From an uncultured Rubrobacteraceae bacterium (lineage in GTDB: Bacteria > Actinomycetota > Rubrobacteria > Rubrobacterales > Rubrobacteraceae), in NCBI GenBank assembly GCA_902806065.1, contig CADCVE010000054.1:1-64000 (forward strand): a DNA stretch of 64,000 bases, written 5' to 3'. Both the position numbers and the translations under genes were made by a program. Positions 28,240-63,802 of the stretch are shown one piece after another (the stretch's first letter is position 1; every line of letters starts with the position of its first letter). Below the pieces are notes generated by a model, which was not told the DNA's origin, did not search any database, and saw nothing but the letters and a program-made list of their open reading frames with translations.

Positions 28240-28681
28240 CCGTGCGATTCGTTCTGCGCAGCGACAACGAGTCCCGCACCCATTCTGCTTTGCACCAGGG
28301 GCCAGCTACGCAAGGAGTAGACCTGGAAGAAGGTTATCGCCCTGACCATTCACTAGCTCCTTAGCAATCAAAACGGCGCATTCATGCAGAACAAAGTAAA
28401 CAAAAGCGCCGAACGAGAGAGAGGAGAGCGAAAACGGAGGAAGCGCGTGTAAGATTAGGTTATCCCTGTTCCTCTGAACTCTGTCCAAGCGCTCAAACCG
28501 GAACTCGTGAAGGGACTGGGTAAGGGCTTCTTGCGAAGCGACGCTTGGGCGGTACGGCTCTTCTGGGCCGGGTCGTTTGCGGTCATACCGCTAAGCGGCG
28601 TTTAGGGTTGCTAGTAGTGGTTTAATTAGCGTGCAATGCTGGGGTTTACCATAGTCATTTAGAGAGGACGTGTTTTCGGGC
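28240..28681. other. Intergenic region before the aro operon
   Basis: About 440 bases without a supported gene; a 60-residue minus-strand frame at 28306-28488 has no recognisable feature. The last 70 bases become AT-rich (TTTAATTAG, TTTACC, CATTTAG) and probably contain the aroC promoter, though I cannot place the boxes confidently. Confidence 0.4.
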
Positions 28682-29854
28682 GTGAGGTTTGATTTTGCAA
28701 CGGCGGGTGAGTCGCACGGGCCTGGGGAGGTGACCCTGGTAAGCGGGGTGCCGGCGGGTCTCGGGCTCCTCTCGGGAGATGTCAACGGCGATCTGGCGCG
28801 CAGGCAGCGGGGCTACGGGCGCGGCGGCCGCCAGAAGATAGAGAAGGATGAGATCGAGTTCCTAGGCGGCGTGCGCCACGGGTACACCCTCGGGTCCCCG
28901 ATCGCGATGCTCGTACGCAACAACGACTACGCTAACTGGGAGGCCCGGATGACCCCGGACCCACCAGAAGAGACTCCAAAGAAGGTCACGCTCCCGCGCC
29001 CCGGCCACGCGGACCTCGCCGGGATGCAGAAGTACGCCTTCGACGATTTGAGGAACGTCCTCGAACGCTCCAGCGCCCGCGAGACGACCGCCCGGGTCGC
29101 CGCTGGCGGCGTGGCCAGGAAGCTTCTCTCCGAGTTCGGCGTCACCATAAACAGCGCGGTGTACCGTATAGGAGAGGCCGCCATCGAGAAGGAGCAGGCT
29201 GCGCTCCTGGCCGCGAAGGCTGATGACTCGGATGTGCGCTGCCCGGACGAGGACGCGACCGAGAGGATGAAGGCGGAGATCGACGCCGCCCGCTACGCTC
29301 GCGATGCCCTCGGCGGCGAGTTCGTCGTGGTCGCCGAAGGGTGTCCGCCGGGGCTCGGGTCTTATGTGGACTGGCGCGACAAGCTCGATGCGAAGCTGGC
29401 TCAGGCGGTCATGTCTATCAACGCCATAAAAGGTGTGGAGATCGGGCTGGGCTTCGGGGTCGCCAGCCGCCGCTCAAGCGAGGTCCAGGATGAGATCCTG
29501 CTGGAAAACGGCGAGCTCGTCCGGTCTAGCAACCGGTTGGGTGGCTTTGAAGGCGGTATGACGAACGGCGAGCCGGTGGTTGTCGCCGCCGCGATGAAGC
29601 CGATCTCCACGATAGCCAAGGCGCTACGCACCGTCGACCTCTCGACCTACGAGCCCGCGCGGGCGTTCCGCGAGCGTGCCGACTCCTGCGCCGTGCCCGC
29701 CGCCGCCGTGGTCGGCGAGTCGATGGTCGCGATCATACTAGCCGAAGCGTTCCTGGAGAAGTTCGGCGCGGATAACATGACCGACATCCACGCCTCCTAC
29801 GACTCCTACATGGCTCGCCTCCGCGCCGCCGGCAAACCGGCCCCCGGCAGGTAA
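28682..29854 (+). CDS. aroC: Chorismate synthase
   Basis: A 390-residue chorismate synthase, converting EPSP to chorismate with reduced FMN. Motifs are TAGESHGPGEVTLVSGVPAGL at the N-terminus (shown here only as family hallmark TAGESHG), RRQRGYGRGGRQKIEKD, the family signature with ARETTARVAAGG, and VVAAAMKPISTI. Two GTG codons compete: 28670 has GAGAGGAC almost touching it, while 28682 gives the usual short MRFDFATAGESHG start and is used here. It begins the shikimate operon aroC-aroK-aroB-aroQ, with short gaps or overlaps between all genes. Confidence 0.95.
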   Translation: MRFDFATAGESHGPGEVTLVSGVPAGLGLLSGDVNGDLARRQRGYGRGGRQKIEKDEIEFLGGVRHGYTLGSPIAMLVRNNDYANWEARMTPDPPEETPKKVTLPRPGHADLAGMQKYAFDDLRNVLERSSARETTARVAAGGVARKLLSEFGVTINSAVYRIGEAAIEKEQAALLAAKADDSDVRCPDEDATERMKAEIDAARYARDALGGEFVVVAEGCPPGLGSYVDWRDKLDAKLAQAVMSINAIKGVEIGLGFGVASRRSSEVQDEILLENGELVRSSNRLGGFEGGMTNGEPVVVAAAMKPISTIAKALRTVDLSTYEPARAFRERADSCAVPAAAVVGESMVAIILAEAFLEKFGADNMTDIHASYDSYMARLRAAGKPAPGR

Positions 29855-29869
29855 ATCTTGGAGGGGCCA

Positions 29870-30361
29870 TTGGCCATAGTCGGGTATATGGGTAGCGGCA
29901 AGACCACGGTCGGACGAGTCCTTGCCGAAGAACTCCACTGGAAGTTCTTGGACCTGGACTGGGTCGTGGCTGAGAAGGCGGGGCGGTCTATACCGGAGAT
30001 CTTTGAATCCTCCGGGGAGCCTTTCTTCCGCAACCTCGAACGCCTCACGCTACTCGAAGTCCTCGATGGACCCCGGGAGCGCGTGCTCGCCTGCGGAGGC
30101 GGCGTGGTGATAGATCCCCGTAACCGCGCCCGCCTCGCGCAAGTCCCAACAGTCTTTCTGTGGGAGGACGCGGATGTCCTCTTTCGCAGGACACGCGGTC
30201 CGGCGCGCCCCCTGCGCGGCACTAACTTCGAGGACTTCGCCCGCCGCTACGCGGAGCGCCTCCCCTACTACCTGGAGGTGGCTGCCCTCCAAATAAACCC
30301 CAACGACCGCCCACCCCGCAGCGTCGCCGACGACATCCTGGAATGGATGCAAGGCGAATGA
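29870..30361 (+). CDS. aroK: Shikimate kinase
   Basis: A 163-residue P-loop kinase that phosphorylates shikimate. Visible are the Walker A motif GYMGSGKTTVGR, the substrate-binding DLD motif in FLDLDWVV, the Arg in FRNLERLTL, LACGGGVVIDP (GGG motif) and the lid Arg in ARPLRG. TTG 29870 is preferred since GGAGGGG lies five bases before it and the product then begins with the beta strand AIVGYMGSGK; TTG 29858 is an alternative. Sixteen bases after aroC, and its TGA overlaps the aroB ATG. Confidence 0.94.
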   Translation: MAIVGYMGSGKTTVGRVLAEELHWKFLDLDWVVAEKAGRSIPEIFESSGEPFFRNLERLTLLEVLDGPRERVLACGGGVVIDPRNRARLAQVPTVFLWEDADVLFRRTRGPARPLRGTNFEDFARRYAERLPYYLEVAALQINPNDRPPRSVADDILEWMQGE

Positions 30362-31455
30362 GAGGGAGCGTTAACGTCGCGGCGTCTACCCCTTACGAAG
30401 TCCTTGTGGAACCAGCCCTCGACCTCGCCGATGCCGTCTCCGCTATCTCCCCCGGAGCATCCGGAGAAACGGCCATACTCCTCACCGACTCCACCGTTGG
30501 TCCACTCCACGCCCCCGCCGTCGTCGCGGCAATCCAACGAGCCGGATGGGACGTGCTCGACACCGTAACCGTCCCCGCCGGTGAGGCCTCCAAGAGCCTC
30601 TCTGTCTACGAAGGGGCCGTGCGCGGTCTGGCGGACGCGGGGCTACCTCGCGGCGGTACGCTCTTCGCGCTCGGCGGCGGGGTGGTCGGCGACCTCGGCG
30701 GTTTTATTGCGAGTAGCTATATGCGTGGTATCGGTTTCGTCCAGCTTCCGACCTCCCTGCTCGCAATGGTAGATAGCTCCGTCGGTGGCAAGGTCGGTCT
30801 GGACCTCCCCGAAGGCAAGAACCTCCTGGGAGCCTTTCTACAACCTCGCCTCGTCGCCGCGAACCTCGACTGGCTGGAGACCCTCCCCGCCAGCGAGGTC
30901 TCTCACGGTCTCGCCGAGGTTATCAAGATGGGCCTCCTCGCTGGCGGAGAGTTCTTCGAGGATCTTCAGCGCCTCCTGGAGGCCGCGCGCGTGGGAGACT
31001 CTGAGGCCCTGCAAGCCCTGATCCTGCACTCCGTCCGCTACAAAGCCTTCATCGTCTCCGAAGACGAACGCGAGGCCGGCCCACGCGCCGTCCTCAACTA
31101 CGGTCACACCATCGGCCACGGTCTCGAAGCCGCCGCGAGCTACGACCTCCCCCACGGTCAGGCTATCGCCCTCGGCATGCTCGCCGCCGCCCGGCTAAGT
31201 AGAGAGAAGTTCGACGTAGACCTCATCGGTCTCCACGAAGACCTCCTACGCGCCGCCGGCCTCCCACTAAAGGCGCCCATGACCGCCGTGCAGCCCGTCC
31301 TCGCCGCGATGGGCCGGGACAAAAAGCGCCGCGGCTCTGACCAGGCCGGAACACACCGCTTCATTCTCCTGAACGACGTCGGCCAACCACAGCGTGACGT
31401 GCCGGTCAGCTCCGCCGAAGCCCGCCGCGCAATAGAGGCTACCATTGCCTCCTAG
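30358..31455 (+). CDS. aroB: 3-dehydroquinate synthase
   Basis: A 365-residue NAD- and zinc-dependent enzyme closing DAHP into 3-dehydroquinate. Conserved blocks: VPAGEASKSL, ALGGGVVGDLGGF, QLPTSLLAMVDSSVGGK, GLAEVIKMGLL, with zinc ligands Glu in GLAEVIK and histidines in NYGHTIGHGLEA and DLPHGQAIALG. ATG 30358 forms an ATGA overlap with the aroK stop; the upstream ATG 30343 is in frame but less likely. Its end overlaps aroQ by eleven bases. Codon third positions here are strongly C-biased, in contrast to genes after 31,560. Confidence 0.95.
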   Translation: MRGSVNVAASTPYEVLVEPALDLADAVSAISPGASGETAILLTDSTVGPLHAPAVVAAIQRAGWDVLDTVTVPAGEASKSLSVYEGAVRGLADAGLPRGGTLFALGGGVVGDLGGFIASSYMRGIGFVQLPTSLLAMVDSSVGGKVGLDLPEGKNLLGAFLQPRLVAANLDWLETLPASEVSHGLAEVIKMGLLAGGEFFEDLQRLLEAARVGDSEALQALILHSVRYKAFIVSEDEREAGPRAVLNYGHTIGHGLEAAASYDLPHGQAIALGMLAAARLSREKFDVDLIGLHEDLLRAAGLPLKAPMTAVQPVLAAMGRDKKRRGSDQAGTHRFILLNDVGQPQRDVPVSSAEARRAIEATIAS

Positions 31456-31888
31456 GATCTTCGTCCTCAACGGGGTCAACCTCGGAACCCTCGGACAACG
31501 CCGCCCGGAAGTTTACGGAACCCTAACCTTGAACGATATCGAGAGTCTCTTGAAGACCGAGTTCCCTGTTGTGGAGTTCGAGTTCAGGCAGACGGACTAC
31601 GAGGGAGAGATGGTGGGCTTTGTGCGGGAGGCGGGGGGAGCGGCGGGTCTGGCAATAAATCCCGGGGCGTGGACACACTACTCGTATGCTCTGCACGATG
31701 CCCTGGAGGCCTTGGATGTACCGAAGGTAGAGGTTCACTTGTCAAACGTTCACAAGAGAGAGGAATGGCGGCGGCGTTCGGTCGTGTCACCGGCGGTGGA
31801 CGCGGTGGTGGCGGGGATGGGGGCGCATGGTTACGCGGCTGCGGTTCGGTACGTGCTCGAGCGTGGAGAAGGTCAAGTCAGCGGGTGA
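31445..31888 (+). CDS. aroQ: Type II 3-dehydroquinate dehydratase
   Basis: A 147-residue type II dehydroquinase. The N-terminal FVLNGVNLGTLGQRRPEVYG carries the lid Arg and the base Tyr; INPGAWTHYSYALHDAL and VEVHLSNVHKREEWRRRS carry the substrate Asn and catalytic His. Two usual positions differ (NGPN is NGVN, FRHHS is WRRRS), which is mild divergence. TTG 31445 overlaps aroB. About 100 bases into the gene the + strand composition switches abruptly from C-rich to G-rich. Confidence 0.93.
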   Translation: MPPRIFVLNGVNLGTLGQRRPEVYGTLTLNDIESLLKTEFPVVEFEFRQTDYEGEMVGFVREAGGAAGLAINPGAWTHYSYALHDALEALDVPKVEVHLSNVHKREEWRRRSVVSPAVDAVVAGMGAHGYAAAVRYVLERGEGQVSG

Positions 31889-37380: not shown

Positions 37381-37561
37381 GATACACTGATTAGTCCATT
37401 TCACAACTTATAATACTACTGACACCATCTAAGGTTTCACATCTTTATGCTTCAGGAATAAAGGCAACCCTGCACCTCTTGCAACCGTGGGAACCGATGG
37501 GTTAGTGTGTAGCGACTAGGATCCCACGTGGGGTCTTCGAGGGGCAAAGGAGAGATGATAA

Positions 37562-43859: not shown

Positions 43860-44591
43860 ATGCGCCTCCAGGCCTTTCTGGCTCGTAGCGGCGCGGCTCC
43901 TTCGAGGCGCAAGGCGGAGATCCTGATCTCCGCCGGTCGCGTCCTCGTAAACGGCGACACCGCCAACCTCGGAGAGAGCGTCGCCCTTACCGACGACATT
44001 CTCCTCGATGGTGAGCCCGTAAGCCTCCCCGAAACTCACGCCTACCTCGCCCTGAACAAGCCCGCAGGCTATCTCACTACCCTCAAAGACGACCGAAACC
44101 GCCGCACCGTCGCGGATCTCATGCCAGAGAACGTTCCCGGACTCGTCCCTATAGGCCGCCTCGACGTCGGAACCACCGGACTCCTCCTCCTCACTAACGA
44201 CGGACCCCTGGCCCATCATATCGCCCACCCCTCCTCCGAGATAGAGAAGGAGTACGAGTTGATCCTGAAGACCCCCGAAGCGGATCTCGAAGAACGCCTG
44301 GCCGCCCTCGCCCAAGGCCCACAGCTCGAAGACGGCAAGATGCTCCCTCCAAGGCTCCAAAACCTCCGCCAAACTCCCAAGAGACTCACTTTAAACCTGA
44401 CGATCCACGAGGGCCGTAACCGCATAATACGTCGAGCCTGTGCGGCGATAGGGCTGGTCCTGCTCTCCCTCAAGCGCGTACGCGTTGGCCCCGTAAGCTT
44501 GGGTAGCCTCCCGGAAGGCCGGTACCGTAAACTCACCGAACAGGAGATAAACATCTTCGAAAAGAGCATGGGAAGAAGAACTAATGGATAA
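43860..44591 (+). CDS. rluB: Ribosomal large-subunit pseudouridine synthase B
   Basis: A 243-residue RsuA/RluB-type pseudouridine synthase. An N-terminal S4 domain (MRLQAFLARSGAAPSRRKAE) is followed by LALNKPAGYLTTLKDDRNR, the catalytic motif GRLDVGTTGLLLLTNDG with its Asp, and EGRNRIIRRACAAIGL. It modifies a uridine of 23S rRNA, usually position 2605. ATG 43860 follows GGAGGGTGGG; the longer frame from 43533 overlaps scpB and is rejected. Its last eight bases overlap aroA. Confidence 0.94.
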   Translation: MRLQAFLARSGAAPSRRKAEILISAGRVLVNGDTANLGESVALTDDILLDGEPVSLPETHAYLALNKPAGYLTTLKDDRNRRTVADLMPENVPGLVPIGRLDVGTTGLLLLTNDGPLAHHIAHPSSEIEKEYELILKTPEADLEERLAALAQGPQLEDGKMLPPRLQNLRQTPKRLTLNLTIHEGRNRIIRRACAAIGLVLLSLKRVRVGPVSLGSLPEGRYRKLTEQEINIFEKSMGRRTNG

Positions 44592-45927
44592 AAGAGACAG
44601 TATCCTCGCCGCGACTCGTATCGCACCCGCAAGTCCTCTGCGCGCGGAGATCTCAGTCCCTTCGGACAAGTCGCTCTCGCATCGGGCCGCCCTCGTCTCA
44701 CTCCTCGCCGAACACCCGGTAACCATCCGCAACTACCTCCCCGCCGAAGATACGCTGGCAACCCTGAACGCCATAAGCACCTTTGGGGCTCGCGTGGAAC
44801 GTAAAGAGATCACCGTCCAAATCACCGGCGCCGGCATGAAAAACATCCCGGAACCCTCGAACGTCATAGACGCCAGCAACTCCGGTACTCTTATACGCAT
44901 AATATTGGGAATAGCGGCAGGATTGGGACGGTTTTCTTGTTTCACGGGGGATGCTTCGTTGCGGGGGCGGCCGATGGGGCGGGTGGTACAGCCGTTGAGG
45001 GAGATGGGAGCAGAGATCGTGGGTGTCGGTGGGGGCGAGATGTTGCCGATCGCGGTTCTTGAGAACGGTGGAGGGTTGCGGGGCTCCGAGCATGTCTTGC
45101 CGGTGGCGAGCGCGCAGGTGAAGAGTTGCCTTCTCTTCGCCGGGCTGTTCGCTGACGGGGTAGTGAGTGTCACAGAGCCGGGGAGAAGCAGGGACCATAC
45201 CGAGCGGTTGCTGCAGGCGTGTAGCGTGATGGTCGGGATAGAGGAGATGTCCTCGGGGGGGCGAAAGGTGAGCGTAGAGCCCCCGGGTTCTTTACGGGTT
45301 CCTGGTGAAATCGAGATCCCGGGGGACTTCTCATCGGCGGCTTTCTGGATCGCGGCGGCGCTGGTCGTGCCGGGCAGTGAGGTGCTGGTCCGCAAGGTCG
45401 GGCTCAACCCGACCCGGACGCGGTTCTTGGATATACTGCGCGGAATGGGTGCGGACTTGGAGATACGCGGCGCGGGTGAGGACGCCATCGGTGAGCCGGT
45501 CGGCGAGGTCGTGGCGCGACACTCGCCTTTGAAGGCGACTACGGTCAATCCAGAGGACGTACCGGGTGCCGTGGACGAGTTGCCGCTGCTGGCTCTGCTG
45601 GGAGCATTCGCCGAGGGGGAGACCGTGGTACGGGGCGCGGAGGAGCTACGCGTCAAGGAGACAGATCGGATACAGGCCGTCTGCGAGGAGTTTCGCAAGG
45701 TGGGCGTGGAGATTGAAGAACGCCCGGACGGTTTTACTGTTACAGGTGACCCGGATCGAGGTATCCGGGGTGGACGCGCGAGCAGCCGGGGCGACCACCG
45801 CATCGGGATGGGTCTGGCCGTCGCCGGGCTTGCGTCGAAGGAAGGGGTCGAAGTGGAAGACCTTGAGGCGGCATCCGTCTCCTACCCCGGTTTCCTGCGA
45901 GACCTTGCGAGCATTTCTTGCCGGTAA
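44584..45927 (+). CDS. aroA: 3-phosphoshikimate 1-carboxyvinyltransferase (EPSP synthase)
   Basis: A 447-residue EPSP synthase joining phosphoenolpyruvate to shikimate-3-phosphate. Conserved parts: ISVPSDKSLSHRAALVSLLA (phosphate Lys), ASNSGTLIRIILGIAAGL (phosphoenolpyruvate loop, NSGT form), RGRPMGRVVQPLREMGAEI, LPVASAQVKSCLLFAGLFA, AVDELPLLALLGAFAEG (catalytic Asp) and RVKETDRIQA. The loop differs from the classical GNAGTAMR. Strikingly, the first 110 codons end in C and the rest in G: the + strand flips from C-rich to G-rich at an AT-rich seam near 44,900. Confidence 0.95.
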   Translation: MDKRDSILAATRIAPASPLRAEISVPSDKSLSHRAALVSLLAEHPVTIRNYLPAEDTLATLNAISTFGARVERKEITVQITGAGMKNIPEPSNVIDASNSGTLIRIILGIAAGLGRFSCFTGDASLRGRPMGRVVQPLREMGAEIVGVGGGEMLPIAVLENGGGLRGSEHVLPVASAQVKSCLLFAGLFADGVVSVTEPGRSRDHTERLLQACSVMVGIEEMSSGGRKVSVEPPGSLRVPGEIEIPGDFSSAAFWIAAALVVPGSEVLVRKVGLNPTRTRFLDILRGMGADLEIRGAGEDAIGEPVGEVVARHSPLKATTVNPEDVPGAVDELPLLALLGAFAEGETVVRGAEELRVKETDRIQAVCEEFRKVGVEIEERPDGFTVTGDPDRGIRGGRASSRGDHRIGMGLAVAGLASKEGVEVEDLEAASVSYPGFLRDLASISCR

Positions 45928-46618: not shown

Positions 46619-47274
46619 AGGTTGGTATACAGCGGCCCCCGGGTAGGGTGCGGGAGGTTTCGCGAAATATGTCGCCGCGGTACCGTCTCTTCAGGCGCGT
46701 CATGCGCGCGCTCGGCTGGCTATTGTTTGGCTTTACGGTGCATGGCGCGCAGAGAGTTCCCAAGGAGGGGCCCCTGATCCTGGCCTCCAACCACCATCGC
46801 TACGCGGACCCGGTCCTGGTGTGCATGGCCGTGCCCCGTAGAATACAGTGGATGGCGAAGAAAGAGGTCTTCGTCCCCCCGTTCGACAAGTTCTTCTACT
46901 TCATCGGTTCCTTCCCCGTGGACCGCAGTAAAGGTGGCCGTACAGCACTCAAAACCTCCCTCGAACTCCTCACCGAGGGCTGGACTCTAGGCATCTTCCC
47001 CGAAGGCACCCGCCGCAAAGCCGGCCGCCCCGAAGACGCCCCGAAGCACGGAGTAGCCATGCTCGCCGCTCGCGGTGGCGCGCCAATACTCCCCGTATTC
47101 GTCAGCGACATCCCCAGCCCACTCCAACGCCTCCGTGGCAAGAGACTCCGAATATTTATCGGTGACCCTATTAATACCGATAATACTAAGAACAGTAAGC
47201 AGGCACGTGCGGAGGTTGCGGGGGAGGTCTTGCGCGAGATCTACGCGCTCGGCGAAGGGTCGGGGGCGTTATGA
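46615..47274 (+). CDS. plsC: 1-acyl-sn-glycerol-3-phosphate acyltransferase
   Basis: A 219-residue membrane-associated acyltransferase making phosphatidic acid. Motif I is SNHHRYADPVLV (HxxxxD), motif II around FFYFIGSFPVDRSK and motif III IFPEGTRRKAG. A hydrophobic stretch LGWLLFGFTVHGA precedes motif I. TTG 46615 overlaps the cmk stop as TTGA; ATG 46669 is an alternative. An AT-rich seam (47,160-47,190, with ATAATAC) near the 3-prime end separates C-rich from G-rich sequence, and the protein there changes from a conserved core to NTDNTKNSKQARAEV. Confidence 0.92.
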   Translation: MKVGIQRPPGRVREVSRNMSPRYRLFRRVMRALGWLLFGFTVHGAQRVPKEGPLILASNHHRYADPVLVCMAVPRRIQWMAKKEVFVPPFDKFFYFIGSFPVDRSKGGRTALKTSLELLTEGWTLGIFPEGTRRKAGRPEDAPKHGVAMLAARGGAPILPVFVSDIPSPLQRLRGKRLRIFIGDPINTDNTKNSKQARAEVAGEVLREIYALGEGSGAL

Positions 47275-49958: not shown

Positions 49959-50633
49959 TTGGATATGACGGAGAACGGCGGCCAGAAAGACCATTACACT
50001 ATAGGAGAGGTCGTGGCTCGGCTACGCAAGGAGTTCCCAACCCTTAGTGTAAGCAAGGTACGTTACCTGGAGCGCCGGCGCTTGATAACCTTGACCCGTA
50101 CCCGCGGTGGGTACCGCCTTTTCTCCCCCAAAGACGTGGAGATGCTTCACTACATCCTGACCCTTCAAGACAAGGAATACCTCCCTCTCAAGGTCATAAA
50201 GAAGCGCATCGAGGGCGGAATGCCCGTCGCGGCAGGCGATACGGGTGGGGGCCTCTCAAGAGTCCTCGAGAACAGGACTTACACCAAGGAAGAGCTCGCC
50301 GACGCTATAGAAACCGAGACGCGCTTCGTCGAGGAGCTCGGCGCTGTTGGCGTCATAGGACGCGGTGGAGAGTTGACTCAGAGGGACGTCGAGATAGCGC
50401 GCATGGCCCTCGAGATGGCCAAGTACTCCATCCAACCCCGCCACCTGCGCGGCATCATGGCCGCCGTCGAGCGCGAAGCCGCTATGTTCAAGCAGATCCT
50501 CAACCCTGAGCTCCGCAGCGGCGACGAGCAACGCGTCCAGGATGCCGTCAACAAAGCTCGCCACCTCGCCGCCGTAGACTCCAAGCTCAAAGAGCTCATC
50601 ATGGACAACGTCATAGACGGCTTCGCCTCGTGA
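49959..50633 (+). CDS. MerR-family regulator, FtsR (Rv1828)-like
   Basis: A 224-residue regulator with an N-terminal MerR winged HTH (YTIGEVVARLRKEFPTLSVS, then KVRYLERRRLITLTRTRGGYR cited in parts) and an unusual long C-terminal helical region in place of a metal site. The wide FPTLSVSKVRYLE spacing is typical of the mycobacterial Rv1828/corynebacterial FtsR group rather than metal-sensing MerR proteins. TTG 49959 or ATG 49965, both behind GGATGGGAG. The FHA-MerR adjacency is as in mycobacteria, where FtsR activates division genes. Its TGA overlaps apt (GTGA). Confidence 0.88.
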   Translation: MDMTENGGQKDHYTIGEVVARLRKEFPTLSVSKVRYLERRRLITLTRTRGGYRLFSPKDVEMLHYILTLQDKEYLPLKVIKKRIEGGMPVAAGDTGGGLSRVLENRTYTKEELADAIETETRFVEELGAVGVIGRGGELTQRDVEIARMALEMAKYSIQPRHLRGIMAAVEREAAMFKQILNPELRSGDEQRVQDAVNKARHLAAVDSKLKELIMDNVIDGFAS

Positions 50634-51184
50634 CGGCTCCTAGCCCAAGTGAGCCCTCGCCCGAGGAGACGATAGCGCGCTACATCCGGGAAGTCCCCGA
50701 CTTCCCGCAGCCAGGCATCTCCTTCAAAGACATAACCCCCCTTATTGAGAATGGTCCCGCCTTCCACACTGCCGTGGACGAAATGGCCCGTGCCATCAAC
50801 GGTATAGACTACTCGCTTATCTTATCCGCCGAGGCCCGCGGCTTTGTCTTTGGAACGGCCCTCGCATACCGCGCCCGCAAAGGACTCATCCTCGCCCGCA
50901 AGCCGAACAAGCTCCCGCGCCAGACCATCTCCGCCGCCTACGAACTCGAGTATGGTCAGAACACCCTGGAAATCCACAGTGACGCAGTCACCAAAGGAGT
51001 CCGTGTCCTCGTCGTAGACGATCTGCTCGCCACCGGTGGCACCGCCCGTGCGATGTGCCAGCTCGTCGAAAACGCCGGCGGCATAGTGGCAGGTGTCGCC
51101 TTTCTGCTAGAGCTTCAATTCCTCAACGGCCGCAAGCGTCTCGCCCCATATCCTGTCACCTCCCTTATCTCCTACAAAGACTGA
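50630..51184 (+). CDS. apt: Adenine phosphoribosyltransferase
   Basis: A 184-residue purine-salvage enzyme making AMP from adenine and PRPP. IREVPDFPQPGISFKDITPLI is the usual start, EARGFVFGTALA and RKPNKLP the substrate region, and VLVVDDLLATGGTARAM the PRPP-binding motif. GTG 50630 overlaps the preceding stop. Length and motif spacing are standard. In stringent-response organisms apt often lies near relA, which is not seen here. Confidence 0.95.
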   Translation: MTAPSPSEPSPEETIARYIREVPDFPQPGISFKDITPLIENGPAFHTAVDEMARAINGIDYSLILSAEARGFVFGTALAYRARKGLILARKPNKLPRQTISAAYELEYGQNTLEIHSDAVTKGVRVLVVDDLLATGGTARAMCQLVENAGGIVAGVAFLLELQFLNGRKRLAPYPVTSLISYKD

Positions 51185-51195
51185 GCACCCGGCCA

Positions 51196-52182
51196 ATGAA
51201 CCAGGCGGACCATACCCTCCCGGCCATCCAAGAACACCACTCCACAATAGAGCCACCGGCCCTACAACAACCCGAGATACAACGCCTCATCGACGTATAC
51301 CTGCGCACCCTCACCAGCCCCCAAACTACAAGAACCTATAATACCGAAATACGCATGTTCGTATCATTTGCTTTTGACGCAAATGGGGGATTAGGGCGTT
51401 CTTCGCTAGCGGAGTTAACGGTGGAGGATATCTCCTTGTACAGGGAGCACTTGTTGAAGGCGTATGCGCAGGCGACGGTAGCCAAAAAGCTGGCAACGCT
51501 TCGCAGGTTTCTGACTTTCGCATACATGGGTGGCGCGGCTAGTATCAATCCGGAAGCGCTACGATTCTTCGCCAAGAGCCCAAAAGTAACCCAGGATCCC
51601 TCCTACAACGTGCTCACGGAAGAGGAACTGGGGCGCATGCTCGTGGCGGCGCGCGCAGCGAACCACCGGGACTACGTACTATTGGCAGTGTTAGCTGGCG
51701 CGGGACTCAGGGAGGCGGAGGTGGTGGGGCTGAAGATCGGGGACTTCCAGGATTCGGGAGAAGGTCAGGTGCTCCTGCGCATTATGGGTAAGGGCGCCAA
51801 GATCCGCTCGGTCCCTATCTCCCCGGAGCTGTGGCAGCTCGTCCAGCGCCACGTCCTTCTTACCGGACGCAGTCTCGTCTCCCACTCGGACGCCCGCAAG
51901 CCCCTGCTATTCTCTCGAGAAGGGGGAGGAAACAAACCCCTGACTACGCGCTCCGTTCGATACATCGTCAAAAAGTACGCAAACGCCGCTAGGATAACCA
52001 AGGCCATATCTCCACACTCCATACGCCACACGGTCGGTACTAACATGGCCGTAAACCAGGCTCCACTCCTGATCATCCAACAATTCCTCGGCCACTCCGA
52101 CCCCAAAACCACTATGCGTTATATTAGACGCGCAGAGCAACTCGCTAACAAAGCGTATACGTATAATACGCTTCCGCTGTAA
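51196..52182 (+). CDS. Tyrosine recombinase, XerC/XerD-like
   Basis: A 328-residue site-specific recombinase. The N-terminal SAM-like core-binding domain (residues about 30-120) includes TRTYNTEIRMFVSFAF. The catalytic domain has Arg in GAGLREAEVVGLK, Lys in MGKGAKIRSVPIS, HxxR in SPHSIRHTVGTN, His in FLGHSDPKTTMRYI and the nucleophile Tyr in that last motif. ATG 51196 is the first start outside apt. It could be the chromosome-dimer resolvase or an integrase. Within the first third the + strand flips from C-rich to G-rich at AACCTATAATACCG. The gene end is a GTAT-rich inverted repeat (52151-52173). Confidence 0.88.
   Translation: MNQADHTLPAIQEHHSTIEPPALQQPEIQRLIDVYLRTLTSPQTTRTYNTEIRMFVSFAFDANGGLGRSSLAELTVEDISLYREHLLKAYAQATVAKKLATLRRFLTFAYMGGAASINPEALRFFAKSPKVTQDPSYNVLTEEELGRMLVAARAANHRDYVLLAVLAGAGLREAEVVGLKIGDFQDSGEGQVLLRIMGKGAKIRSVPISPELWQLVQRHVLLTGRSLVSHSDARKPLLFSREGGGNKPLTTRSVRYIVKKYANAARITKAISPHSIRHTVGTNMAVNQAPLLIIQQFLGHSDPKTTMRYIRRAEQLANKAYTYNTLPL
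52151..52173. repeat. Inverted repeat at the 3-prime end of the recombinase gene
   Basis: AAGCGTAT (52151-52158) and ATACGCTT (52166-52173) are exact reverse complements around ACGTATA, lying within the last codons of the recombinase gene in an AT-rich patch. It includes TATAATAC. It could be a terminator stem, an autoregulatory site or a recombination site of the adjacent enzyme. Confidence 0.45.
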
Positions 52183-52214: not shown

Positions 52215-52679
52215 TTACGAAGGGTAGCAGGCTGTGTCTTTCTGAAGCGGGTACTCTTTCGGGCAGGCACCAGTTGGCATCAGGGGCACAGGGCCGTCCT
52301 CCGGACCGCCGGCTTCAAGCAGATCGTCTCCCTGGCTTGTTCTGCCAAAGAAGTCGCCTTCGTCGCAAGCCGTACTGTTAAAGTCTGGGTCAAGAGCGTC
52401 GCCGAAGAGGATCTGGTCCAGTTCAAAGACTTCCTGTGCCTGCTGCTTATTATCGAAGTCTGAGCACTGTACATCCCCGTAGCGGTCGAGGAGTTGCTGA
52501 ATCTGCTGATCTACATCCGCGGAAGACTGCGCCGTAGCACGAAAGCCAGATAAGATACCCGCTTTCTCAGCGATGTTCTCTCCCTCCCAAACAAGCCTTG
52601 CCCCTAGAAGGAAGAGCACGATAATTCCTACCAGTACGCAGTAAGTTGACGCCTTAAAGGCTACCTGCCCAGACCGCAC
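52215..52679 (-). CDS. Membrane-anchored surface protein with Excalibur-like and EAGGP/CP-CY motifs
   Basis: A 154-residue protein with one N-terminal membrane helix (STYCVLVGIIVLFLLGARLV) and an extracellular remainder. The middle QCSDFDNKQQAQEVFELDQ and FNSTACDEGDFFG resemble a degenerate Excalibur calcium-binding domain. The C-terminus EAGGPEDGPVPLMPTGACP followed by KEYPLQKDTACY matches that of the next gene. GTG 52679 follows AAGGAGGGT. Function unknown; likely a cell-surface or secreted protein with a disulfide between the two C-terminal cysteines. Confidence 0.75.
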   Translation of the reverse strand: MRSGQVAFKASTYCVLVGIIVLFLLGARLVWEGENIAEKAGILSGFRATAQSSADVDQQIQQLLDRYGDVQCSDFDNKQQAQEVFELDQILFGDALDPDFNSTACDEGDFFGRTSQGDDLLEAGGPEDGPVPLMPTGACPKEYPLQKDTACYPS

Positions 52680-52717
52680 AAACCCTCCTTGTAAGCGCTA
52701 CAAACTCTTGATCGCGA

Positions 52718-53176
52718 CTAGTATCCCTCGACGTAGCAGCCATCACTCTTCTCCACCGGGAACTCCTCGGGACAACCACCACCCGGCATCGTAGGCAAGG
52801 GACCAGCCGAAGGACCGCCAGCTTCCATCAGCGTACCCGGATTAGGTGCCGGAGGCGGAGGAGGAGGAGGAGGAGGTGGTGGTGGTGGTGGCGTCTTTGG
52901 CGCTCCTGGAGGGGTTGGTGGTGGTGTCTTCGGTGTGCCCGGGGGTGTGGCAGAAGGGCTCTTCTCTGCTTCTTTAGGCTGGTTGGTGGATGGCGGTGAA
53001 GAACCCGGCTTGGGTTGAGCTCCGCCATTGTACTGTTGAGCGGCTGCGTTCTTTGTGGAATCAGCCTGAAATCCGGCCTGCCCGCCCGAGAAGACAGCGC
53101 CCAATACTGCCAAACCACAAACCGCTACAAACCCCAAAATCGCCGCTTTTGCCGGTAAACCTACTCCGCGCAACAC
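52718..53176 (-). CDS. Polyproline surface protein sharing the EAGGP/CP-CY C-terminal motif
   Basis: A 152-residue protein with an N-terminal membrane helix or uncleaved signal (AAILGFVAVCGLAVLGAVFS). A long Pro/Thr/Ser/Lys stretch follows, including 14 consecutive prolines, and the C-terminus is EAGGPSAGPLPTMPGGGCP then EEFPVEKSDGCY. The C-terminal 35 residues are clearly homologous to those of the preceding gene on this strand, while the middles are unrelated. GTG 53176 with GGGGGG upstream; a strong promoter lies at 53212-53241. The proline tract spans a cell-wall-like distance and would require EF-P for translation. No known family recognised. Confidence 0.75.
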   Translation of the reverse strand: MLRGVGLPAKAAILGFVAVCGLAVLGAVFSGGQAGFQADSTKNAAAQQYNGGAQPKPGSSPPSTNQPKEAEKSPSATPPGTPKTPPPTPPGAPKTPPPPPPPPPPPPPPAPNPGTLMEAGGPSAGPLPTMPGGGCPEEFPVEKSDGCYVEGY

Positions 53177-53211
53177 AAAACCCCCCGCAAATCTTCGCCA
53201 TGTTAAGGTTT

Positions 53212-53241
53212 ATTATAGCCAGATTTGCAAGCTCGGGTCAA
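53212..53241 (-). promoter_or_regulatory. Promoter for the two surface-protein genes
   Basis: On the minus strand TTGACC (53241-53236), an 18-base spacer and TATAAT (53217-53212) closely match the housekeeping consensus. It lies 36 bases before GTG 53176 and probably serves both EAGGP genes. Confidence 0.7.
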
Positions 53242-53409
53242 AGGTAGGCTCGGCAACACCTGACCCACAACCACAAACCGTCAGCTTCGAATCCAAACCG
53301 CGCAATAGATACTGAGCTTCACTCATATGTCTCAATATTACGCCTCACAGGTTATCAGAGAAAACAGAGAAAAAGCGAGAGCGTGAAATGATGAAGGTCA
53401 CACGCTATA

Positions 53410-53445
53410 GATCATACTTTTGGTCGGCGACGATCCTACTTTTGG
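53410..53445 (+). repeat. Two 14-base direct repeats upstream of the Trp-rich peptide gene
   Basis: GATCATACTTTTGG (53410-53423) and GATCCTACTTTTGG (53432-53445) differ at one base and start 22 bases apart, about two DNA helix turns. They are about 90 bases before ATG 53536. The arrangement suits an activator or repressor binding as two copies on one DNA face. Confidence 0.55.
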
Positions 53446-53535
53446 GGGATGCGGCCCTGTGATGAACATGTTTTTGTTATGAAAGATGCAAAAGCGATCA
53501 AGGGGGAGGTCGCCGAAGGAAGGGAGGCGGTCTCT

Positions 53536-53797: not shown

Positions 53798-53866
53798 GGG
53801 GTAGGTCCAATAGCCTACCCCAATCTCTCTTTCAGTTTCCGAGAATTGTACTTATCGGAAACTGAA
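53798..53866 (+). terminator. Tandem hairpins after the Trp-rich peptide gene
   Basis: GGGGTAGG (53798-53805) pairs with CCTACCCC (53814-53821), followed by AATCTCTCTTT: a plausible terminator. Ten bases on, TTCAGTTTCCGA (53831-53842) pairs exactly with TCGGAAACTGAA (53855-53866), a 12-bp stem with a 12-base loop. The rest of 53867-54023 shows no gene. Confidence 0.6.
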
Positions 53867-57025: not shown

Positions 57026-58459
57026 TCAGCGCGGTCTCTCCCTGGGTGCTCTATCCCCAGAGTTAGCTTCTGCTGGGTCCGCGTATAGAACGTGCGGACC
57101 CGCGGAGCCTATCCTCGCGGTGACGTATGTTCCGGGTGGGGCATTGGTCTGAACGTGTACGGCATGGCCGCTCCAGGTCTCGCCGATGGCGTTACCCTCC
57201 TCAGGGTTACGTCCATATCGAATGTAGATTTCCTCGGTCGAGCCGATCTTCTTCTGGTTATTCTCGAAGGCGTTTTGCTCCACGGCTCGCAGTACTTCCA
57301 CGAACCTTCTCTGGACGACCCTCTCCGGCGGCGTCCCCGGTAGTTCGGCCGCCTCTGTACCGCGACGAGGGGAGAACTTGAAGATGTAGGCGGAATCGAA
57401 ACGGCAGTCCTCGACCAGCCTCAAGGTTTCTTCGTGGTCGTGCTCGGTCTCTCCAGGGTGCCCTACTATAATATCGGTGCTTAGAGTTCCATCCGGGACG
57501 GCCTTGCGGAAGACCTCTATCTTCCGGCGGTACCTCTCGGATTTATACCCCCGGTGCATGATCTTCAGCATCCGATCCGAGCCCGACTGCACTGGTAGGT
57601 GCAACTTCTTCACCAGCGTCTTCTTCTCCCCGATCAACCTGAGCGTCCTGTCTTCCATGTTGGACGGGTGACTGGTCGTGAACCATACTCGCGGCGCCTC
57701 CTCCGCTATCCTCTCCAAGAGATCACAGAACCTCTTGCCACTCTCACGCCAGGCATCCACCGTCTGGCCTAACAAAGTCACGTATCGCGTCCCCGTAGAA
57801 ACCAGCCCATGAACCTCGTCTACTATGTTCTCCATCGGCCGGCATGACATCCTGCCCCGAACGGACGGCACTACACAATAGCTGCATTTGTAGTTGCAAC
57901 CAGTCATTATGGTAACGAACGCCGAGTGCTCGCCCTCTGTTCCTGGTAGCTCCGGTGTATGTGTTTCTTCCATACCTGGCAGACCCACGAATTCAGCCAG
58001 CTCGTAAGTATTATGAGTACCCAATACGAGGTCTATCCCAAATTGTCGTTGTAGATCTCTTGACTCACCGGAAGCGCCGATGCAGCCGGTCAGGGCGAAC
58101 TTCTTGACGCGGCCTTCTCTCTTGAGACGACTGAGTTCACCGAGGTGGCCGCGTACGCGGTCCACAGCATTCTCCCGGACGTAGCAGGTATTGAGGACTA
58201 CAATGTCAGCGTCTTCGTAGCGGTTCACCTCGGCGTATCCAGCGTCCAGAATCATGCGACGCATCCGGTCAGAGTCGTGGACGTTCATCTGGCAACCAAA
58301 GGTTCGTATGCAAGCCGTCTTTGACGCGCCCTGCCCGCTACGCGTCCACGAGTTCTCGGGGTCTTCTGGGGCGCCAAAAGAGGGTTTGCTGGAGAGCGGG
58401 ATCGGGGTTATGCTCTTTGCTGTTTGGTTTGCGTACTGAACGTGATCAGTGCTACTCAT
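57026..58459 (-). CDS. miaB: tRNA-2-methylthio-N6-dimethylallyladenosine synthase MiaB
   Basis: A 477-residue radical-SAM methylthiotransferase acting after MiaA. The N-terminal domain supplies the auxiliary cluster cysteines in TFGCQMN, LNTCYVREN and ALTGCIGA. The radical-SAM motif is GCNYKCSYCVVP, HLPVQSGSDRMLKIMHRGY follows and a TRAM domain ends the protein. ATG 58459 is chosen since GGAGGA lies five bases before it; an in-frame ATG at 58477 has no such site. The first 50 residues are an unusual Ser/Pro-rich extension before the core. Confidence 0.95.
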   Translation of the reverse strand: MSSTDHVQYANQTAKSITPIPLSSKPSFGAPEDPENSWTRSGQGASKTACIRTFGCQMNVHDSDRMRRMILDAGYAEVNRYEDADIVVLNTCYVRENAVDRVRGHLGELSRLKREGRVKKFALTGCIGASGESRDLQRQFGIDLVLGTHNTYELAEFVGLPGMEETHTPELPGTEGEHSAFVTIMTGCNYKCSYCVVPSVRGRMSCRPMENIVDEVHGLVSTGTRYVTLLGQTVDAWRESGKRFCDLLERIAEEAPRVWFTTSHPSNMEDRTLRLIGEKKTLVKKLHLPVQSGSDRMLKIMHRGYKSERYRRKIEVFRKAVPDGTLSTDIIVGHPGETEHDHEETLRLVEDCRFDSAYIFKFSPRRGTEAAELPGTPPERVVQRRFVEVLRAVEQNAFENNQKKIGSTEEIYIRYGRNPEEGNAIGETWSGHAVHVQTNAPPGTYVTARIGSAGPHVLYADPAEANSGDRAPRERPR

Positions 58460-59420
58460 ATTCTTCCTCCGGTTCATAAACGCGGCCTCTTATGATTACC
58501 TCTCCGGGGCGCGCATCGAAGTCTAACCCCGCGAGCTCCAGGTAACTCGCCGCCGCCGCCCTCCGCAGGACGCCGCGGATCTCCGCAAGGTCGTCGTTGC
58601 CAATGGAGAGTATAGGCCCTCCAGGACTCTCCGACCTCGCCTCACGAGAGCCCACACGGCTACCGCCTCTCACAGCGCTCCCCGAACTCGAGGATATATC
58701 CTTCGCGGCCGTAACCTCCCCCGCGACAACCCTCTGAACTGTCCTCAGTGATACCTCTAAACCTAAAGCCAAAGCCGCCTCCCTTATCCCCTGCGCTTGC
58801 GAGTGGTCCCCTTGTGTGTCCCTGACAAGTCCTTGTATTATGTGGTTTTGTAGCAGGCGGGCGAGGATGCTAGCGGGCGAGGCTTGGTAGATGCGGGGCT
58901 GGAGGATGGAGGGGATGGAGGGGCTAGCAGCGAATCTGGTTATGGTAGCGAGGAGGTTGGTTTTGGAGGGGCGGGAGCCCGCCTGGAGGGTCTTCTCGGG
59001 GAGGGTGTGAGTATCGAAGACTAGTTTTATAGCGGTTGGTGAAGTCGTGGAGAGGACTTCGGCGTAGAGTGCGGCGTTCTTTACATGGTAGAGGGAGAGG
59101 CCCGCGCCATGCGGGAGGTCTTCTTCGGTTCCGGGGAGTATGGGATCGAGGTGGCGGGTGGTTACGCCAGGCTCGAAGATAAGGTGTCTGTGAGTTTCGG
59201 GGATGCCCTGTCCGTCATCCAAAACTACAAGGGTACGATATCGGCGAGCGCGGAGCGAGGAGGCGACGTAGATGTTACGGGCGCCGGCATCGCGAGAGTT
59301 ACGGAGAAGCTCGTGGAGGGCGTCCTCGACGTAGAGGATACGCCCCGGACTGCGGCGGGCGCCTTCGGCTCCAAGTAGCCGGGCGAAGCCGTTCCCGAGA
59401 TCCCTGTATGGTCCTTGCAC
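58452..59420 (-). CDS. GHKL-family ATPase with C-terminal helix-turn-helix-like region
   Basis: A 322-residue protein. Residues about 1-125 form a Bergerat ATP-binding fold: the N box LHELLRNSRDAGA, the G1 box LDDGQGIPE and the G2 box HGAGLSLYHVKNAALYA, as in MutL, Hsp90 and histidine kinases. No histidine phosphoacceptor or MutL C-terminal region is seen. Residues about 200-240 (GIREAALALGLEVSLRTVQR) look like a helix-turn-helix. GTG 59420; its stop overlaps miaB by eight bases. The function is unknown; it lies between rny and miaB, so a role in DNA or RNA metabolism is conceivable. Confidence 0.75.
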   Translation of the reverse strand: MQGPYRDLGNGFARLLGAEGARRSPGRILYVEDALHELLRNSRDAGARNIYVASSLRARRYRTLVVLDDGQGIPETHRHLIFEPGVTTRHLDPILPGTEEDLPHGAGLSLYHVKNAALYAEVLSTTSPTAIKLVFDTHTLPEKTLQAGSRPSKTNLLATITRFAASPSIPSILQPRIYQASPASILARLLQNHIIQGLVRDTQGDHSQAQGIREAALALGLEVSLRTVQRVVAGEVTAAKDISSSSGSAVRGGSRVGSREARSESPGGPILSIGNDDLAEIRGVLRRAAAASYLELAGLDFDARPGEVIIRGRVYEPEEEYE

Positions 59421-60988: not shown

Positions 60989-61011
60989 TAAACTTTCCTC
61001 CAAAACGTCGC

Positions 61012-61053: not shown

Positions 61054-61076
61054 CGGTCGGTATACTCCGGTCGTTA

Positions 61077-61691
61077 CTAGTCGGCTTCCCCGCGGTAATC
61101 GCGGGCTACCTCCGCACAGATGTCAGCAGAATAGCCCCGCCGCATAAGGAAGCCATGGACCCGGCGCGCCTGCGCGCCAGACCCTCCACCGGTATTATAA
61201 CGCCGCCGCGCGGCCTCGCGGGCCGCCTCGCTCTCGGAGCCCTCCGTAAATGCTTCCTCAATGATCTCCCGCGCGATCTCTTCATCCACCCCAGCCCGCC
61301 TGAGGTCCCCGTAGATCCTGCGCGGCCCATACTTTCTGGCCTCGGCGCGGACGAGCTCTCGCGCGAACCCTTCATCGTCGATATAGCCCATCTCTTCCAG
61401 ACGCTCGACCACGACGTCTACAGTACCCTCAGCATAGCCCACCCGGTGAAGCCTCTCATTAATCTCCCCGCGTGAACGAGCCCGGTACCCCAAGATGTTC
61501 AGGGCCTTGTTCATCGCCAGCGGCCTCTCCCCCGCGATCCTGACCTCCGCAAGCTCCTCCACAGAGAACGTGGCACCCTCACGCAAGCCGCGCTCGGTAG
61601 CAACACCCGCGTCCAACTCCGCCCAAAACTCACCGTCGACCTGGACCCTGATCCTGCCACGCCGCTCATGAGCGCCGGTTATGATCGGCAC
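61077..61691 (-). CDS. recX: Regulatory protein RecX
   Basis: A 204-residue modulator that binds RecA filaments and limits recombination. It consists of helical repeats: ALNILGYRARSRGEINERL, VVVERLEEMGYIDDEGFARE with the conserved YIDDEGFA, RKYGPRRIYGDLRRAGVDEE and FLMRRGYSADICAEVARDY. The N-terminal 60 residues form a beta-strand-rich extension (GRIRVQVDGEFWAELDAGVA) found in actinobacterial RecX. It follows recA by 40 bases on the same strand, the usual arrangement. Start ATG 61691. Confidence 0.94.
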   Translation of the reverse strand: MPIITGAHERRGRIRVQVDGEFWAELDAGVATERGLREGATFSVEELAEVRIAGERPLAMNKALNILGYRARSRGEINERLHRVGYAEGTVDVVVERLEEMGYIDDEGFARELVRAEARKYGPRRIYGDLRRAGVDEEIAREIIEEAFTEGSESEAAREAARRRYNTGGGSGAQARRVHGFLMRRGYSADICAEVARDYRGEAD

Positions 61692-61731
61692 CCGGCCCCC
61701 TTGAATTCCCTACCACAAATAGCCGGAGTCC

Positions 61732-62799
61732 CTACGCCAGACGCCCAGAGGATGCCTCAGCGCCCTGGCGCTCAGTGCCCGAAGCCTCTTCCTGGCCGTC
61801 AAGGGGGGGTGCGGGACTGGTGAATCCTAGCTTCTCGTGGATGTCGGCGAGGATACGTGCGCGCACGTCGTCGTTCTCCTTCAGGAACTGCTTGGAGTTC
61901 TCCCGGCCCTGCCCGAGCCTCTCATCCCCGTAGGCGAACCAGGCACCCGACTTCTGCACCACGTTGTGGAGGATGCCCACGTCGAGCAGACTCCCCTCCT
62001 TGGAGATACCTTCGCCGTACATAATGTCGAACTCCACGACCTTGAACGGCGGCGCTACCTTGTTCTTGGCAATCTTGACCTTCGTCTGGTTGCCTACCGT
62101 ATCGTTGCCTACCTTGAGAGCCCCGATGCGCCTTATGTCCAGCCTGACGCTCGAATAAAACTTGAGCGCCCGTCCGCCCGGCGTCGTCTCGGGAGACCCG
62201 AACATCACCCCAATCTTCTCCCTCAACTGGTTGATAAAGATGGCCGTCGTGTTGGAACGGCTCAACGACCCCGAGAGCTTCCTCAAAGCCTGGCTCATTA
62301 GTCGAGCCTGCAGCCCTACGTGCGAGTCTCCCATCTCACCCTCGATCTCAGCTCTAGGCACGAGGGCGGCGACGGAGTCGATCACGACGATGTCGAGAGC
62401 GCCGGAGCGGATGAGGGTATCGGCTATCTCGAGGGCCTGCTCACCATTGTCGGGCTGGGAAAAGTACAGGTTTTCGAGGTCCACGCCTATGGCTTCGGCG
62501 TAGGTGGGGTCGAGGGCATGTTCGGCGTCTATGAACGCGGCGAGACCACCCGTCTTTTGGGCCTCCGCGATGATGTGTAGGGCGAGAGTAGTCTTGCCGC
62601 TAGATTCAGGACCGTAAATCTCCACGATACGGCCCTTGGGGACGCCGCCGACACCAAGCGCCAGGTCCAGCGCCAGGGCGCCCGTGGAGATCGAAGCGAC
62701 CTTACGCGGCGGTTCGTCGCCCATGCGCATGATCGCACCCTTACCAAACTGCTTCTCTATATGAGAGACGGCGGCGCCCATAGCCTTCGTCTTGTCCAT
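61732..62799 (-). CDS. recA: Recombinase RecA
   Basis: A 355-residue strand-exchange ATPase and SOS co-protease. The P-loop lies in [13 protein letters not shown], Walker B in [20 protein letters not shown], loop L1 nearby, and loop L2 in [30 protein letters not shown] (parts cited: [20 protein letters not shown]). The acidic C-terminal tail is replaced by a Ser/Glu-rich one. ATG 62799 is chosen, with GGAGG eight bases upstream; the TTG at 62814 overlaps that site. No intein is present. A promoter with TTGGGA and TATAAT lies upstream. Confidence 0.98.
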
Positions 62800-62853
62800 C
62801 TTCTCGTCCTCCAAAAAGGTTGCTTAGCACTGATTCTTGCTTGGAACAACCAG

Positions 62854-62882
62854 ATTATACTGCAGGCCGCGACGCCTCCCAA
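62854..62882 (-). promoter_or_regulatory. recA promoter
   Basis: On the minus strand TTGGGA (62882-62877), a 17-base spacer and TATAAT (62859-62854) form a good promoter 55 bases before the recA ATG. I did not find a convincing LexA (GAAC-N4-GTTC) box around it. Confidence 0.65.
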
Positions 62883-62905
62883 TACTAATCAGGAAGCGAC
62901 GTATA

Positions 62906-63802
62906 TCAACCTGCGGGCTGCACCGGGAAGTCGCGGGTGACGGGTTGGCCGGGGTTTCCGGCGCGGCCAAGGTTCCGCCCGTCCGCCTCGACCTCGATAA
63001 TACCGCCGTTTCTGGCGGAGACGGTAAGCACCCGCCGCGCCTCAAAGGTCTGCGAGAAACCTGTTTGCGCGACGCCATCGTAAACGACCACCCCATCTAC
63101 AGAAAGCGTCATTCCTGTGGAGCCGCCGCTTACACTCACCGTCATGGGTACCGTCTCGGTAGCGGCAGCTTGTTCGTCGGAGCCGTCTTCGTCGTCCGCG
63201 GGGCTGGAGCTACCGGTGTCGTTGACCCCCGTGCCGTTCGTGGTCTCCGTAGCGGGCTCTTCGCCTTGCGAGGGGGTCGGATCTGGGGGCTCTTCTTGCT
63301 CGGCTACAGGTCCTTGGACGGCGTCGTCACCGCCGCTGCCTACCGATCTGGAGCCGACATAATACAGGCTCCCAATCACACCCGCGAGTACGAGCGCGGC
63401 GAGTGCGAAGATGAGGACGGTGGCCCCGGAGATCCTTCGGCGCTCGACCCCACCTACGCCACCGGGAGTTATGAGGGGTGCGTCGGCTTCGCTTACCCGG
63501 GAGGAACTCTGGTAGTCGAACTGCCGCTCCCGGCGTGGCGCCCGGCGGTCTTTGAGCTCCCTGCTCAGACTTTCGCCGTCGAGGCCGAGGAAGTTCGCGT
63601 AGGTCTTGAGAAACCCGCGAGCATAGATCGGGTCGGGGAGCACGGTCGGATCCTCGCGCTCCAGCCCCTCGAGGTAGCGAGTCCGTATCTTGGTCGCATG
63701 CTCGACCTCTTTGAGAGAGAGACCTTTTTCGAGGCGTTTTCTCTCCAGGATCTGGCCTATCTGCCCCGCGAACTGCCCGTTGTCCTGGTCCCCTACGCTC
63801 AT
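62906..63802 (-). CDS. RodZ-like protein: cytoplasmic HTH, one membrane helix, extracellular domain
   Basis: A 298-residue bitopic membrane protein. Residues about 10-85 are a HTH_25-type helix-turn-helix (GQILERKRLEKGLSLKEVEH, LPDPIYARGFLKTYANFLGL). A membrane helix (ATVLIFALAALVLAGVIGSL) is followed by an extracellular acidic Pro/Glu/Thr/Ser linker and a C-terminal DUF4115-like beta domain (TVSVSGGSTGMTLSVDGVVV). This matches RodZ relatives, which link MreB to the cell wall in rods; mreB is not in the window. ATG 63802 is used; TTG 63820 is in frame. It lies between ftsK and recA as in many Gram-positives. Confidence 0.85.
   Translation of the reverse strand: MSVGDQDNGQFAGQIGQILERKRLEKGLSLKEVEHATKIRTRYLEGLEREDPTVLPDPIYARGFLKTYANFLGLDGESLSRELKDRRAPRRERQFDYQSSSRVSEADAPLITPGGVGGVERRRISGATVLIFALAALVLAGVIGSLYYVGSRSVGSGGDDAVQGPVAEQEEPPDPTPSQGEEPATETTNGTGVNDTGSSSPADDEDGSDEQAAATETVPMTVSVSGGSTGMTLSVDGVVVYDGVAQTGFSQTFEARRVLTVSARNGGIIEVEADGRNLGRAGNPGQPVTRDFPVQPAG

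Follow-up and report, generated by a model that had tools for sequence, protein, structure and literature searches.

A convergent DNA word with a GC-skew step around the predicted dif site of Rubrobacteraceae points to a probable replication fork trap

We analysed positions 1 to 64,000 of contig C54 (hereafter the window) from the draft genome of an uncultured Rubrobacteraceae bacterium, a soil actinobacterium (G000; 3.75 Mb in 112 contigs). By recA, the closest named relative in the collection is another uncultured member of the Rubrobacteraceae, at 83% identity. An earlier note on this DNA had reported a sawtooth of strand composition, in which C-rich stretches switch abruptly to G-rich ones inside genes. 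The same region holds copies of a short non-palindromic word (consensus TAAMCRCATAATAC, core YATAATAC), which converge on a conserved palindrome, here predicted to be the dif site, beside the gene of a Xer-type tyrosine recombinase.

We searched for the word in ten genomes of the genus (G000 included) and three of sister genera, together representing one family, and in eight genomes of other families of the phylum. Switches were measured as D(x), the GC skew of the flank to the right of x minus that of the flank to the left; reverse-complementing leaves D unchanged, so the polarity of a step is independent of the strand read. A step was called strong with D of at least 0.45, and for G000 the sampled sequence amounted to 1.06 Mb; counts of steps by gene context are approximate, as they come from a custom gene caller that missed the GHKL gene of the window. 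The strict word, CRYATAATA[CT], was counted if within 60 bp of a step, and the terminus stretches are those of G002, G012 and G000 (for G000, contigs C54 and C37 in the step counts). The features of the window are as follows (an Rfam scan of 28-64 kb returned no family):

51055..52182, + strand: xer, Xer-type tyrosine recombinase gene (PF00589, PF02899) adjoining the predicted dif
53831..53866: predicted dif, a palindromic element with 31-32 of 36 matches in G002, G003 and G012; gene strand and word orientation flip there
37407..37416, + strand: core word variant CTTATAATAC, intergenic; D 0.29
44421..44430, + strand: word CGCATAATAC in rluB; D 0.15-0.16 (copies in relatives' rluB, 0.03-0.66)
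43984..44906: C-rich arm before the aroA word, from segmentation; skew -0.23
44896..44905, + strand: aroA copy CGCATAATAT, differing from the word by one base, on the 44.9 kb switch; D 0.63 (the same codon in G004 carries CGCATAATAC, D 0.60)
44907..45871: G-rich arm following the aroA word, from segmentation; skew +0.30
47177..47186, + strand: plsC copy, variant CCGATAATAC, on the 47.2 kb switch; D 0.56 (the aligned position in G007 and G008 carries CACATAATAC, D 0.53-0.69)
50419..51345: C-rich arm preceding the xer word, from segmentation; skew -0.26
51335..51344, + strand: core word CCTATAATAC inside xer, on the 51.35 kb switch; D 0.43
52160..52169, + strand: second core word of xer, CGTATAATAC, at its 3' end; D 0.37
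58008..58017, - strand: variant CTCATAATAC in miaB; D 0.22, within the arm of the GHKL site and hence not independent
58617..58834: C-rich arm left of the GHKL word, from segmentation; skew -0.38
58835..58844, - strand: word CACATAATAC inside the gene of the GHKL ATPase, on the 58.8 kb switch; D 0.76
58835..59320: G-rich arm to the right of the GHKL word, from segmentation; skew +0.43
63356..63365, + strand: GACATAATAC, the sole core copy of 39 directed away from dif; no step, D 0.03

Exact CRCATAATAC was found 104 times in the 13 Rubrobacteraceae genomes against 31 times for the reversed control (6-13 copies per genome), and 11 times against 6 in the eight genomes of other families; 39 exact copies showed little information beyond the consensus. 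The main contigs of G002 and G012 begin at dnaA (position 346 of C1, 4,156,492 bp, and position 1245 of C4, 2,960,953 bp, respectively), and the word is confined to the region opposite oriC: all nine exact copies of G002 lie at 2.047-2.194 Mb of 4.156 Mb, within 147 kb, and eight of the nine of G012 at 1.440-1.572 Mb of C4 (2.961 Mb), within 132 kb, the ninth being on a separate contig.

The palindrome, located by blastn of G000 against G002, lies between the innermost opposed word copies (53831 in G000, 2,115,935 in G002, 1,512,121 in G012, and in G003 too); six further stretches, from G003, G010 and G011, which need not contain the locus, held no match to it within 13 mismatches. It is palindromic, conserved and near the strand switch of the terminus, and we predict it to be dif, where Xer proteins would recombine. 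A dif pattern searched with at most 3 mismatches matched 8 times in the window (4.2 expected) and had no clear match in the terminus centres, except that in the centre of G012 it returned the word itself. The palindrome may resemble the dif site of B. subtilis. In the terminus stretches, 38 of the 39 copies of core YATAATAC are oriented toward it, and elsewhere the core is found a single time in 340 kb of G002 and three times in 972 kb of G000. Genes run toward it as well, 104 of 111 being rightward on its left and 87 of 88 leftward on its right in G012, with 106 of 119 and 90 of 104 directed at it from either side in G002 and 45 of 49 and 34 of 35 in C54; outside the terminus of G002, 204 of 319 genes are leading.

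Each word tends to sit on a step in skew. At the 38 dif-pointing core copies mean D is 0.304, with 34 of 38 above 0, against a mean of -0.001 for random positions and a maximum of 0.097 in 20,000 draws; D declines with distance from dif (Spearman -0.46, p 0.03, 22 sites). Around 32 CATAATAC copies chosen regardless of skew, GC skew moves from -0.19 at -100..-50 to +0.27 at +10..50, and AT skew leans toward A before the word and slightly toward T after it. At four-fold degenerate sites read in frame (71 distinct sites), skew goes from -0.07 at -900..-700 to -0.68 at -100..-40, then to +0.40 at +12..50 and about 0 beyond +300, yielding arms of about 0.6-0.7 kb before the word and about 0.25 kb after it. 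Away from the terminus of G002 such sites have a coding-strand skew of -0.13 in leading genes and -0.17 in lagging ones. The usual asymmetry of replication is therefore small, the leading strand being slightly richer in G and T. It would produce a down-step where forks meet, whereas the arms of the word are far larger and of opposite sign.

The step follows the gain and loss of the word in orthologous genes. We compared orthologous places in a strict pass, dropping 39 high-scoring segment pairs under 40% identity or 80 residues, and obtained a mean D of 0.36 with the word (n=49) and 0.04 without it (n=28); all nine genes having both states differ in the same way (mean difference 0.32, p 0.004). 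A first pass had given 0.42 (n=64) and 0.00 (n=47), with some duplicate loci and distant paralogues kept, and the stricter pass is the one to trust. The difference is only 0.03 in rluB, and the group of plsC sequences without the word includes near-words that still step. The GHKL gene loci from ten genomes of the genus all have their step at a single position, which carries CRCATAATAC or a variant differing by one base, and the word or such a variant is present there in 12 of 12 aligned genomes (D 0.50-0.91). The GHKL gene of G001 matches in two pieces with a stop between them, which reflects a broken gene or an assembly error. Beyond the window, truB carries an exact word (C54, 72831-72840; D 0.71-0.73) that is also present in five relatives from the genus or family; G012 has neither word nor step there.

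Most copies within genes are read as CGC ATA ATA C, in frame and on the coding strand, ATA accounting for 927 of 5,952 isoleucine codons. In the terminus of G002, 8 of 20 [RH]II triplets are coded CGCATAATA, against 0 of 6 elsewhere, and the xer copy, TATAATAC, stands in a different reading frame from the R-I-I copies and is kept in six of seven aligned sequences, the seventh being only 28% identical. The enrichment of CGCATAATA at the terminus and the xer copy in another frame thus point to conservation under a constraint on DNA. An unbiased scan of 6-mers by D placed ATAATA and GTATTA at the top in G002. In the sampled sequence of G000, words containing GATC behave in the opposite way to AT-rich words (GAGATC, n=1443: mean D -0.03, z -7.8).

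The sawtooth was recounted and its extent measured. All 12 hand counts of C and G in the earlier note were reproduced exactly, and at 250 bp D has a skewness of 0.68 +- 0.21 in 28.6-64 kb of the window against 0.05 +- 0.05 in 1-28.6 kb; 19 other stretches of G000 gave 0.36 +- 0.08, 20 stretches of G002, from the same genus, 0.21 +- 0.08, and other bacteria 0.06 +- 0.05 (73 of 80 loci, 7 under 9 kb being left out; one of the 73 is itself from Rubrobacteraceae). A three-state segmentation of the 1.06 Mb gave 15 direct changes from C to G and 2 from G to C, and strong steps number 71 up and 18 down (29 and 3 at D of at least 0.55). Sharp C-to-G steps are therefore real and exceed the reverse, but the claim that switches always go in that direction was too strong: 28.6-90.5 kb of C54 has 12 up and 2 down, and a down-step of 0.60 lies at 53058. 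The interval 52600-53480 beside the predicted dif, which holds this down-step and up-steps at 52793 and 53348, is gene-poor.

As described, switches fall inside aroQ, aroA, plsC, xer and the GHKL gene, but the one at 56.16 kb is at the junction of hflX and miaA, not deep within a gene. Genome-wide, 30 of 71 strong up-steps are between divergent genes, an ordinary context. Up- and down-steps of equal frequency had been named as what would speak against a polar pattern, and well inside called genes outside C54 and C37 (972 kb) this is nearly what we found, with 13 up and 10 down; at the terminus it is not, so the intragenic polarity is local to the terminus. The observation is thus confirmed in part, and its interpretation partly supported: a strand-specific gradient resetting at fixed points agrees with many seams sharing one word and with an effect strongest at four-fold (synonymous) sites. 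The shared word, its convergence on a dif-like palindrome and its position opposite the origin were beyond what the note could see. Four of the six reported switches lie at the word or a variant (a one-base variant in aroA, a variant in plsC, the core in xer and an exact copy in the GHKL gene).

We consider it probable that the word-bearing switches are replication-fork barriers, forming a polar fork trap around the predicted dif together with a protein of their own and leaving a mutational footprint. A protein would bind the word so that forks may enter the terminus and not leave it; forks meeting or breaking at such a barrier would start short outward synthesis, by over-replication or by strand-invasion repair, and deamination of the exposed strands would deplete C along a few hundred bases. 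We propose outward synthesis because the arms, C- and A-rich before the word and G- and T-rich after it, have the sign of synthesis running outward; the same sign would result if a break at the word were repaired by strand invasion. Flaps and over-replication occur in E. coli at sites of fork fusion (PMC6393302, PMC10331603), which lends plausibility to outward synthesis. We rejected deamination on 5'-resected ends or in the lagging gap, as its arms should have the wrong sign.

Several observations weigh against fork barriers. The word accounts for the strongest steps of G002 and G012 and several in G000, not for all: of the 29 strong up-steps in the terminus stretches, only 8 have the strict word (C54, 3 of 12; C37, 0 of 4; G002, 2 of 5; G012, 3 of 8), and elsewhere it is present at 0 of 59 in the rest of G000 and 0 of 6 in the rest of G002, with no down-step carrying it. 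The switches in aroQ (31.5 kb) and at the hflX/miaA junction (56.2 kb) lack the word. Conversely, some words lack a step, including G012 1482763 and 1513520, rluB of G004 (0.03) and two in the window:

3395..3404, + strand: exact word without an up-step; D -0.19
61192..61199, - strand: core TATAATAC, convergent, without an up-step; D -0.15

The 6-mer scan in G000 ranks other AT-rich words first. The sign of the arms is opposite to that of a plain termination step and of lagging-gap deamination, and over-replication is held in PMC10331603 to start at freely fusing forks and not at Tus-blocked ones. Nearly all copies are on the coding strand and nearly all genes of the zone run toward dif, so that polarity of replication and polarity of genes or transcription are not separated. 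No binding protein was found by profile searches for Tus and RTP in five genomes or by Pfam on eight proteins flanking dif. Finally, three E. coli Ter sites have no step (D -0.20, -0.02 and 0.13, in a small control of six MG1655 stretches where the Ter pattern matched three sites and left other Ter sites unmatched), so such a scar does not mark fork traps in general.

The two word-free steps, at 31530 in aroQ (0.54) and 56159 at hflX/miaA (0.65), are absent or weaker in relatives; at the aroQ place D is 0.09, -0.20 and -0.19 in three of them. The Pfam search around dif gave RsiG, FHA, MerR, RibD_C, SNase and HflX-type GTPase domains and two proteins without a family, with no evident candidate for a terminator protein among the eight and no family-wide search made.

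Segregation could offer another role for the word: copies oriented toward dif might be direction marks, like the FtsK-orienting KOPS, or sites of other terminus proteins, with arms coming from breaks or processing, conceivably breaks repaired by strand invasion. KOPS-like words are, however, abundant along both chromosome arms (PMC5993296), against about ten copies per genome here, all within 147 kb in G002, and we regard this role as unlikely. Promoters acting in both directions inside genes, our first idea from the AT-rich seams, would expose the non-template strand by outward transcription and cause loss of C on both sides; the core indeed has CATAAT/TATAAT, which is -10-like, on one strand and TATTAT on its complement, the sign of the arms fits, and many up-steps elsewhere are between divergent genes. 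We dropped them as the main cause and rate them quite unlikely, since there are no conserved -35-like positions within -20..+29 of the word (information at most 0.21 bits at -20..-15), -10-like words in G000 genes have no step (TATAAT, n=26, mean D 0.000; CATAAT, n=125, -0.002), and the terminus location and convergence on dif are left unexplained. In G002 genes the means are 0.18 (TATAAT, n=5) and 0.11 (CATAAT, n=11), in sets including word copies. At three up-steps between divergent genes of G000 (C12:3360, C12:7629 and C15:3907) we observed palindromes with GGTATAA-type arms, which we take to resemble TetR-family operators.

Selection on message or protein, through rare ATA ATA codons, the R-I-I peptide or local codon usage, would agree with most gene copies reading CGC ATA ATA in frame on the coding strand, and is very improbable given the core of xer in another frame, the confinement of copies to the terminus and a step that occurs at synonymous sites, spans hundreds of bases and is symmetric about the word. 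We give almost no credence to chance or to the mosaic of recombination tracts that the earlier note had suggested: the step recurs at the same codon in many genomes, including ones with proteins about 50-70% identical, and is lost where the word is lost. Exchange does occur here, as G000 and G004 have had their aroA swapped for a form unrelated to the others (33% identity), and a mosaic or chance may apply to the aroQ and hflX/miaA switches. The aroA of these two genomes (44584-45927 in the window) shares about 33% identity with the aroA that occupies this place in five other genomes of the genus; by sequence comparison it is a replacement in place, and it has its own word copy at a different codon.

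Among known systems, KOPS and architecture-imparting sequences share with the word a strand bias and an orientation toward the terminus (PMC5993296); they are highly abundant along the arms, whereas the word is rare and terminus-confined, in G002 with no copy outside 147 kb. The palindrome is like dif/XerCD in lying beside an xer gene at a strand switch, but its sequence is unlike the dif pattern tried. In yeast, 71 fixed termination zones have upward jumps of GC and TA skew (PMC3459929); these zones span kilobases and share no oriented word, against single words with arms of 0.25-0.7 kb here; AT skew moves the opposite way, A before and T after the word.

The closest layouts are those of the fork traps. 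Tus/Ter of E. coli likewise has several non-palindromic sites around dif and directed at it, about ten per chromosome (layout from PMC6549158), but the Rubrobacteraceae word differs and the three E. coli sites lack the skew step; a profile search for the Tus family PF05472 found it in 0 of 5 genomes (E. coli control positive). RTP/Ter of B. subtilis also has convergent polar sites around dif, but its site of about 30 bp, as given in PMC3317982, is unlike the word, and the RTP family PF02334 was found in 0 of 5 genomes (B. subtilis control positive). No open-access paper joining 'Rubrobacter' with 'fork trap' or 'replication terminus' was found, and among open-access titles and abstract starts on fork traps and Actinobacteria none reports a trap there. 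The layout is that of a fork trap, and by protein it is neither Tus/Ter nor RTP/Ter. We put it at about an even chance that Rubrobacteraceae have a third, independent trap, with its own word and terminator protein, each barrier scarring the surrounding genes so that use of the trap can be read from sequence. If so, the existence of a third trap, found in an actinobacterial family, would be evidence of repeated origins of such systems; fork-trap sites could be located by their skew step without experiment, and the sign of that step would bear on the fate of DNA where forks meet.

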